Source of the DNA: Janthinobacterium rivuli
GTDB taxonomy: Bacteria > Pseudomonadota > Gammaproteobacteria > Burkholderiales > Burkholderiaceae_D
Length of the DNA: 64,000 nucleotides
NCBI RefSeq assembly: GCF_029690045.1
Contig: NZ_CP121464.1
Location: forward strand, 1,426,001 to 1,490,000
Reading direction: 5' to 3'
Part shown: positions 55,441 to 56,800 of the stretch, in pieces
Layout of the letters: each line of letters starts with the position of its first letter
Position numbering within the stretch: position 1 is the first letter of the stretch
The notes under the pieces: generated by a model
What the model saw: only the letters and a program-made list of their open reading frames with translations
Told to the model about the DNA's origin: nothing
The model's database searches: none
Made by a program: the position numbers and the translations under genes

Positions 55441-55470
55441 TTGCCAACCGTTGCAATTTAGGTTTATAGT
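55441..55470 (+). promoter_or_regulatory. aroG: Promoter of the aroG leader
   Basis: TTGCCA (55441-55446; 5 of 6) and TATAGT (55465-55470; 5 of 6) are separated by 18 bp. Transcription would start near 55477, about 10-20 nt before the leader peptide start. The remainder of the gap back to 55181 shows no gene; it must hold the promoter of the divergent receptor and contains the palindrome CTAGATCTAG near 55258. Confidence 0.65.
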
Positions 55471-55486
55471 CGTTCATCACTTACGG

Positions 55487-55564
55487 ATGACTCGCATGTT
55501 CGCTCGCCACTTTTTTACCGCTTATTTTTACTTTAGCAATTCCAACCCAAAGGCGGTGGAGTAG
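55487..55564 (+). CDS. aroG leader peptide, Phe/Tyr-rich (25 aa)
   Basis: The open frame ATG 55487 to TAG 55564 has seven aromatic residues in 25 codons: Phe at 5, 9, 10, 14 and 16, Tyr at 13 and 15. The run TTT TTT ACC GCT TAT TTT TAC TTT is at 55511-55534. An alternative start ATG 55496 has GGAT 7 nt upstream and keeps all aromatic codons. It matches the design of attenuator leader peptides such as PheL, and precedes the gene for DAHP synthase, the first enzyme leading to Phe and Tyr. Its stop codon lies just after the antiterminator hexamer. Confidence 0.75.
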   Translation: MTRMFARHFFTAYFYFSNSNPKAVE

Positions 55565-55607
55565 CGGTCGGTTCACGTAGCAGCAACACGAGATCCCAGC
55601 AAATTCT

Positions 55608-55638
55608 AAAAAACCGCCACTGATGGCGGTTTTTTTTT
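55608..55638 (+). terminator. Attenuator terminator upstream of aroG
   Basis: The stem AAAAAACCGCCA / TGGCGGTTTTTT with loop CTGA is followed by a U-tract (T8 at 55631-55638). The 5' arm hexamer ACCGCC (55613-55618) is complementary to GGCGGT (55552-55557) at the 3' end of the leader ORF and to GCGGT and CGGTT at 55564-55573, giving a mutually exclusive antiterminator. A complete intrinsic terminator 41 bp before the gene it would block only makes sense as a regulated one. Confidence 0.8.
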
Positions 55639-55678
55639 ACCCAGATGTTTTACCCTTCCTTAAATTTTGGAGAAAATG

Positions 55679-56743
55679 ATGCCCCGCACCGATGATTTGC
55701 GTATTCGCGAAATGAAGGAATTGACTCCGCCGTCCCACCTGATCCGCGAATTCGCCTGCTCGGAGCAAGCCGAACAGACCGCCGCCAGCGCCCGCATTGC
55801 CCTGCACCGTATCCTGCATGGCCAGGACGACCGCCTGATGGTGGTGATCGGCCCTTGCTCCATCCACGACACCAAGGCGGCGATGGAATATGCGCGCCTG
55901 CTCGTCAAGGAGCGCGCGCGTTTCGCCGGCGAACTGGAAATCGTCATGCGCGTCTACTTCGAGAAGCCGCGCACCACGGTGGGCTGGAAGGGCCTGATCA
56001 ACGACCCGTACATGGACAACAGCTTCCGCATCAACGACGGCTTGCGCATGGCACGTGAGCTGTTGCGCGATATCAATGAGCTGGGCTTGCCGGCCGGCAC
56101 CGAGTTCCTCGACGTCATCAGCCCGCAATACATCGCCGACCTGATCAGCTGGGGCGCCATCGGCGCACGCACGACGGAGTCGCAGGTGCACCGCGAGCTG
56201 GCGTCGGGATTGTCCTGTCCCGTCGGCTTCAAGAATGGCACGGACGGCAATGTGAAAATCGCCGTGGAAGCCATCAAGGCCGCCTCGCAGCCGCACCATT
56301 TTCTCTCCGTCACGAAGGGCGGCCACTCGGCCATCGTCTCGACCAATGGCAACGAGGATTGCCACATCATCTTGCGCGGCGGAAAAACCCCGAACTATGA
56401 CGCGGCCAGCGTGGACGAGGCGTGCAAGGCCATCGCCGCGCAAGGCCTGGCGGCGCGCCTGATGATCGATGCCTCGCATGCGAACAGCTCGAAAAAACCG
56501 GAAAACCAGATCCCCGTGTGTGCCGACATCGCCAGCCAGGTGGCAGGCGGCGATGGCCGCATCGTCGGCGTGATGGTGGAATCGCATCTGGTGGCGGGGC
56601 GCCAGGATTTAATCCCGGGCAAGGAATTGATCTATGGCCAGTCCGTCACGGATGGTTGCATCGACTGGAGCGCCAGTGTGGCCGTGCTGGAAAACCTGGC
56701 CGCGGCCGTGAAGCAGCGCCGCTTGCAGGGCGACGCGGAATAA
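55679..56743 (+). CDS. aroG: 3-deoxy-7-phosphoheptulonate (DAHP) synthase, AroG type
   Basis: The product is 354 aa from ATG 55679 (MPRTDDLRIREMKEL), with GGAG 6 nt upstream; ATG 55676 is too close to the ribosome site. It aligns from end to end with the class I enzyme AroG of Escherichia coli: DDRLMVVIGPCSIHD, EKPRTTVGWKGLINDP, SWGAIGARTTESQVHRE, GFKNGTDG and DASHANSSKK. It condenses phosphoenolpyruvate with erythrose 4-phosphate to begin the shikimate pathway. The N-terminal segment is that of the Phe/Tyr-feedback-inhibited class. Expression is likely controlled by the upstream attenuator, consistent with regulation by Phe and/or Tyr. Confidence 0.96.
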   Translation: MPRTDDLRIREMKELTPPSHLIREFACSEQAEQTAASARIALHRILHGQDDRLMVVIGPCSIHDTKAAMEYARLLVKERARFAGELEIVMRVYFEKPRTTVGWKGLINDPYMDNSFRINDGLRMARELLRDINELGLPAGTEFLDVISPQYIADLISWGAIGARTTESQVHRELASGLSCPVGFKNGTDGNVKIAVEAIKAASQPHHFLSVTKGGHSAIVSTNGNEDCHIILRGGKTPNYDAASVDEACKAIAAQGLAARLMIDASHANSSKKPENQIPVCADIASQVAGGDGRIVGVMVESHLVAGRQDLIPGKELIYGQSVTDGCIDWSASVAVLENLAAAVKQRRLQGDAE

Positions 56744-56764
56744 AATGACGTGCCGCGCAGCATG

Positions 56765-56800
56765 AAAAAAAGCCCGGAAAGCTAAGCTTTCCGGGCTTTT
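56765..56800. terminator. Bidirectional terminator between aroG and a receptor gene
   Basis: The stem AAAAGCCCGGAAAGC and its complement GCTTTCCGGGCTTTT have a very short loop, with A7 before and TTTT after. It serves both converging transcripts. Confidence 0.9.

Follow-up and report, generated by a model that had tools for sequence, protein, structure and literature searches.

The aroG locus within the 64,000 nucleotides of Janthinobacterium rivuli DNA analysed here (the window) raises the question of how inflow into the aromatic pathway could be adjusted in bacteria that lack TrpR and TyrR. Neither TrpR (PF01371) nor the TyrR helix-turn-helix domain (TIGR04381) was matched in this genome, and both were found in E. 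coli, a result consistent with the contrast to enteric repressor control that had been drawn in an earlier note on this DNA. Excerpts of Leyn et al. (2016; PMC5343134) describe TrpR and TyrR as absent outside gammaproteobacteria, and control of the entry enzyme at the RNA level would fit the gap left by the missing TrpR and TyrR. We consider it about 90% probable that aroG is controlled by a ribosome-mediated transcription attenuator of the trp/phe type (Table 1), which would provide a testable answer to this question.

The promoter-like pair claimed previously, TTGCCA-18-TATAGT, is present and is the only promoter-like site between 55000 and 56200 (shuffled mean 0.4); scores of at least 10 of 12 were reached by 33 of 99 related upstreams versus 4 of 495 shuffles. 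The protein encoded downstream matched NCBIfam AroG with 581.8 bits, above the cut-off of 568. The region running from the promoter through the leader and terminator to aroG is flanked by two ORFs on the minus strand (960 and 970 aa), which by eye look like TonB-dependent receptors. Directly 3' of aroG, at 56764-56800, lies a hairpin (AAAAAAAGCCCGGAAAGC...GCTTTCCGGGCTTTT) that has runs of A and T and by eye looks like a bidirectional terminator common to aroG and the convergent ORF. The same genome also encodes a second DAHP synthase (L002, G000:C1:5618366-5619394), which is 51% identical to AroG, and no terminator of the type described here was found upstream of this paralogue.

Table 1. Elements of the proposed aroG attenuator, in window coordinates
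Feature	Position	Strand	Basis
Sigma-70-type promoter, TTGCCA-18-TATAGT	55441..55470	+	Promoter scan; high scores in related upstreams
Leader ORF (favoured start), MFARHFFTAYFYFSNSNPKAVE and stop, 22 codons	55496..55564	+	ORF reading; ATG column conserved
Control codons, Phe Phe Thr Ala Tyr Phe Tyr Phe	55511..55534	+	Leader translation
Segment 1 (GCAATTCCAACCC), 5' arm of predicted 1:2 hairpin	55536..55548	+	RNAfold; weak at equilibrium
Segment 2 (GGCGGTGGAGT), common to predicted 1:2 hairpin and 2:3 antiterminator	55552..55562	+	Folding, alignment
Segment 3 (ATTCTAAAAAACCGCC), predicted antiterminator partner of segment 2; ACCGCC also in terminator 5' arm	55603..55618	+	
Intrinsic terminator, AAAAAACCGCCA-CTGA-TGGCGGTTTTTT-TTT (segments 3:4)	55608..55638	+	Own scan, RNAfold, covariation
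aroG, 3-deoxy-7-phosphoheptulonate (DAHP) synthase, regulated gene	55679..56743	+	NCBIfam NF006723.0 AroG

The arrangement was formulated as a joint rule: a short ORF had to encode at least five aromatic residues in eight codons, a terminator had to lie no more than 150 nt away, and 6 nt or more near the ORF end had to be complementary to the 5' arm of that terminator. On both strands of the window this rule was matched once, by the aroG leader, and second-order Markov sequence totalling 23.1 Mb, searched on one strand, gave no match. Regions upstream of aroG were then sampled from the best-matching loci of the same genus, of named genomes (best 80 of 587) and of the family, giving 139 sequences that represent 138 loci and a second copy of the window. 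A CCGCC...GGCGG-T terminator was found in 136 of the 139 and, with the paralogue and the window copy set aside, in 135 of 137 close aroG loci and 126 of 127 distinct upstreams. The three sequences that lack it are the paralogue L002 and two loci, L051 and L124, with one common upstream sequence, in which the leader is absent and aroG lies directly behind another reading frame, whose end presumably resembles TldD. A relaxed rule requiring four aromatic residues in eight codons, the Markov null having been run for five, was satisfied by 127 of the 139 sequences. Removal of rows with at least 88% identity reduced the 118 distinct leaders to 73 representatives, which form the first alignment (A1).

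The leader is a short ORF, predicted to be translated, in which the codons for the aromatic end products cluster. It had been described as a 25-codon ORF with five Phe and two Tyr codons; the count of Phe and Tyr codons is borne out (Phe at 55499, 55511, 55514, 55526 and 55532, Tyr at 55523 and 55529, together seven of 22 codons), but the start and length probably are not. We regard the ATG at 55496 as the more likely start because an ATG is kept in this column in 71 of the 73 representatives, while the in-frame upstream ATG at 55487, which would make the leader 25 codons long, occurs in one of the 73, namely the row of the window itself. Six aromatic codons do fall within 55511-55534, as the note had it. 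The last Phe codon (55532-55534) is retained in all 64 representatives that are not of the Burkholderia type, where it precedes a Ser or Cys codon (translations compared by eye), and in the peptides of the 64 rows without the Burkholderia-type motif the number of aromatic residues (Phe, Tyr or Trp) ranges from 3 to 11. Within the ORF, 126 of 128 gap cells of the 73-row alignment belong to gaps of a multiple of three, versus 29 of 348 after the stop, these being counts of cells and not of events. Codon-position entropies of 0.79, 0.81 and 0.76 bits revealed no third-position excess of variation in the leader ORF, perhaps owing to a pairing constraint of the RNA on the same bases; as a coding test this measure gave no signal and was dropped, and gap-length and frame tests were used instead.

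The terminator, which was missed by a simple scanner and recovered by our own terminator scan and by RNAfold, has a stem at 55608-55635 and a predicted folding energy of -15.3 to -15.7 kcal/mol (RNAfold). Its previous description holds for the hairpin and for the ACCGCC of the 5' arm (55613-55618), but not for the tract of eight T, which is a run of nine (55630-55638) lying partly inside the stem. The hexamer GGCGGT is located at 55552-55557, just before the leader stop, as reported, and its proposed pairing with ACCGCC is supported by the folding. An antiterminator of these six base pairs alone was nevertheless replaced, since the predicted fold is longer: GGAGT (55558-55562) also pairs with ATTCT (55603-55607), so that 55552-55562 is joined to 55603-55607 and 55613-55618 in a stretch folding at -18.4 kcal/mol, with 55565-55600, behind the leader stop, supplying the inner arms. 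The GCGGT/CGGTT at 55564-55573, previously considered a back-up, is not the main partner in this fold, in which GGAGT:ATTCT prolongs the helix. Also overlooked was a hairpin at 55536-55565 (-9.0 kcal/mol, z -2.1, RNAfold) that would compete for GGCGGT and complete the classical 1:2 / 2:3 / 3:4 scheme; its strength is uncertain, with z ranging from -0.7 to 0.5 in nine Burkholderia-type leaders. Segment 2 is predicted to pair with segment 3 in 73 of 73 representatives, a pairing that, together with the retention of GGCGG across three reading frames (below), argues for an antiterminator excluding the terminator.

Conservation of the ORF and of the paired hexamers, which the earlier note had proposed as a check, extends well beyond the genus and family samples. 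AroG was matched in 126 of 160 genomes of the order (each at least 90% complete), and the relaxed joint rule was satisfied by 25 of 87 upstream regions from the order, one of which is that of the window. A second alignment (A2) comprised 46 diverse leaders chosen for having GGCGG, with identical cores removed first; L156 and L215, which have a terminator and no GGCGG, were removed beforehand, and each of them carries another stretch complementary to its own terminator arm. Across the order the leader peptides diverge (FYFYFFWHLKPLADREG, FYFYFYGFPMPLAEEG, FFYYFYFFCTPAEG, FYFWFSVPGGRE, FYFFYFFGFFRQRRDE) while GGCGG and CCGCC persist. The GGCGG motif stands at frame offsets 2, 0 and 1 in 37, 7 and 2 of the 46 leaders, respectively, and is thus read as Ala, Gly-Gly or Arg-Arg; this use of every reading frame shows that conservation acts on the RNA and not on the peptide. 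The five core 2:3 pairs are invariant across the 46 leaders, and the base beside segment 2 varies in part with the terminator arm, forming with it a U-A pair in 19 leaders, C-G in six, A-U in one, U-G in one and no pair in 19. Three of five measures of 2:3 covariation lay above nearly all shuffles, and the other two did not exceed them (285/500 and 328/500). In the terminator, four of ten pairs changed on both sides across the 46 leaders, and for each of the five measures between 0 and 5 of 500 shuffles attained the observed value. These covarying pairs and the 135 of 137 close loci point to an intrinsic terminator between the leader ORF and aroG.

A covariance model of the element (R2) was searched in the same 160 order genomes and gave 37 whole-model matches of at least 60.9 bits in 13 families. 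Comparison of coordinates by hand revealed that all 37 lie on the same strand as, and within 150 nt upstream of, an AroG gene. Together with the NCBIfam assignment, this places the regulated gene in the pathway of the same amino acids that the leader codons specify. The model itself contains 28 of the 37 as rows; of the other nine, G209 reproduces a row exactly, G066 and G200 are near-copies, and six (G056, G151, G152, G146, G184, G098) differ clearly from the model rows. In the other 123 of the 160 genomes no match of that strength was obtained. At an E value of 0.01 or better, at least 76 of the 160 genomes contain some match, although most of the other matches, among those listed, cover the terminator end only. 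The genome of J. rivuli itself has one strong match (88.3 bits, the next scoring 28.5), and no leader match was found on plasmids.

We propose that transcription starts near 55477 and that a ribosome would translate the leader peptide behind the polymerase. With Phe- and Tyr-tRNAs plentiful, the ribosome would reach the stop codon and cover segment 2, which lets the terminator form and stops transcription short of aroG. A ribosome stalled on Tyr-Phe-Tyr-Phe (55523-55534) would instead cover or disturb segment 1 and leave segment 2 free to capture segment 3 before segment 4 is made, with the result that aroG is read. The aminoacyl-tRNA of most relevance would be that of Phe first, and probably also that of Tyr. 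In an untranslated leader, segment 1 and other RNA upstream would probably keep segment 2 occupied, and the terminator would form. The logic put forward in the earlier note, in which a stall frees GGCGGT for ACCGCC and a ribosome at the stop codon covers GGCGGT, is supported by the conservation and by a model of the nascent RNA, with a longer antiterminator, an added hairpin and a later start.

In the folding calculations, masking of segment 1 in RNA ending before segment 4 gave a 2:3 pairing probability, P(2:3), above 0.5 in 73 of 73 representatives, and with a ribosome at the stop this level was exceeded in none of the 73 (P(2:3) of 0 in the window). For the window, stalls on Tyr 55529 and on the last Phe, 55532, gave P(2:3) of 0.93-0.96 (about 0.96 for the latter), those with Tyr 55523 or Phe 55526 in the A site gave 0.40-0.96 depending on the footprint assumed, and those on Phe 55511 or 55514 gave 0.5-0.7, compared with 0.00-0.02 without a ribosome for nascent 3' ends up to 55626. 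Stalls on the non-aromatic codons Arg/His (55505-55508) and Ser/Asn/Ser (55535-55541) would by geometry also antiterminate, so specificity has to depend on which codons become limiting. How an untranslated leader behaves is uncertain, since 2:3 was still dominant in 59 of 73 nascent representatives when only segment 1 was free and in 18 of 73 when about 60 nt upstream of segment 2 were free without a ribosome. At full-length equilibrium the terminator formed in 71 of 73 representatives without a ribosome, and with segment 1 masked or in the stalled states the antiterminator formed in 0 of 73. Thermodynamic switching at full length was rejected on this result and kinetic switching was kept after nascent 3' ends had been modelled: as the terminator wins once segment 4 is complete, the choice would have to fall during transcription. 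Of two E. coli controls, the trpL leader behaves alike in the same calculation and pheL does not. Shuffled upstreams also sequester segment 3 (514 of 730 trials), and we therefore treat the folding as illustration and the conservation as evidence.

Several other explanations of the locus were weighed against this evidence. Since short ORFs abound and Phe and Tyr are encoded by AT-rich codons, an AT-rich upstream ORF might by chance precede a plain terminator; the absence of joint-rule matches from the Markov sequence and the occurrence of strong R2 matches in 13 families leave this with a negligible probability. Nascent peptides such as TnaC and the macrolide leader peptides cause ribosome arrest, and the aromatic run could likewise be an arrest motif through which the peptide itself stops the ribosome, rather than a gauge of tRNA charging. 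The rather constant C-terminal SxSxPxAVE of the Oxalobacteraceae-like leaders would agree with such a role. Between families, however, the tails differ (AVE, LADREG, LAEEG, GGRE, RRDE) while GGCGG stays, leaders with shifted tails (L043, L049, L066) retain GGCGG, and the aromatic residues swap among Phe, Tyr, Trp and sometimes His, all of which make arrest by the peptide very improbable.

The trp leader of Sinorhizobium is reportedly a trans-acting small RNA, and the terminated leader RNA of about 160 nt could similarly act mainly in trans, with control of aroG secondary. Within the Janthinobacterium/Massilia/Duganella group the post-stop stretch at 55565-55600 looks well conserved by eye, as a small RNA might be; yet the same stretch forms the inner arms of the predicted antiterminator, it is by eye not retained in the diverse set, and every one of the 37 strong R2 matches adjoins AroG. 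We judge a mainly trans-acting RNA to be unlikely, if a little less so than an arrest peptide, and the leader RNA may have a trans role in addition to attenuation.

The proposed aroG attenuator would share its three-structure logic, with a terminator before the gene, with pheL-pheA and trpL-trpE of E. coli. Leader-peptide attenuation of this kind is a textbook principle. The E. coli leaders serve terminal branches and use codons for one amino acid (Phe in pheL, Trp in trpL), whereas the aroG leader precedes the gene for the first common enzyme and has mixed Phe and Tyr codons, elsewhere with Trp codons too. A close described counterpart is the aroF (DAHP synthase) operon of Corynebacterium glutamicum, where, according to excerpts of PMC11802643 and PMC7356990, an AroR leader peptide with Phe-Tyr-Phe likewise precedes the DAHP synthase gene; Phe limitation raises transcription and Tyr availability is without effect. 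That host is an actinobacterium, and the likeness to the aroG leader lies in these described features.

Against the Rfam family Phe_leader (RF01859) the window scored 21.4 bits, below the gathering score of 55, and no Rfam family reached its gathering score in 13 related loci or in the window, where the sub-threshold matches were judged to be chance. The model described here supplies a covariance-model family missing from Rfam 15. In the following, aroAI is taken to denote DAHP synthase. Table 7 of PMC1173090, drawn from Merino's database, includes computed attenuators that precede DAHP synthase-tyrA operons of Vibrio, as well as further aroAI operons in other phyla; as here, the Vibrio attenuators were computed before a DAHP synthase gene, but the operons include tyrA and belong to other bacteria, and the Table 7 material does not mention a leader peptide. 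The main text of Naville and Gautheret (2010; PMC2965389) contains no occurrence of aroG, and full-text literature searches did not find an aroG attenuator in these bacteria, which does not prove its absence from print. Such attenuation has previously been reported for the DAHP synthase gene of C. glutamicum; what appears to be new here is its probable occurrence in these bacteria, its wide and patchy range and its mixed-codon sensor. Besides Corynebacterium, this order too has a probable attenuator of the common entry enzyme, and a widespread one.

Phe codons occur in all 46 diverse leaders, Tyr codons in 42 and Trp codons in 22, and in 21 of the 46 all three are present in the 15 codons before segment 2. 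This mix allows one to ask whether a single RNA integrates several end products. Some leaders, given the 22 of 46 with Trp codons, may sense all three; that one leader reads all three pathway end products in many of these bacteria is a tentative suggestion, to which we give somewhat less than even odds. If it is true, a shortage of any aromatic aminoacyl-tRNA would suffice to switch on the common first enzyme, and the leader would be an OR gate at the entry to the pathway, replacing repression by TyrR and TrpR.

A class-wide R2 search of 276 genomes gave seven matches at an E value of 1e-5, three of them in this order and four outside it (L241, L242, L243 and L245, in G397, G493, G261 and G492). 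The four outsiders belong to two families and again stand before AroG. In a tree of 51 chosen AroG proteins they fall into one clade with three members of a family of this order (f4; support 97/97), two of which carry similar leaders, suggesting that the aroG gene and its attenuator probably moved between orders together. The label 'leader' requires at least six changes on this tree, four of them forced by well-supported branches, and losses or repeated gains have thus occurred. The next-best order match after the 37, at 41.6 bits in G207, was rejected as an aroG leader because it does not lie before AroG. At this locus (L246, minus strand of G207:C20:46200-49200), an ORF of 204 aa is preceded by a leader-like ORF, MVTFSVVYNVYFYWYRSSGGAKGC, and a CCGCC/GGCGG hairpin.
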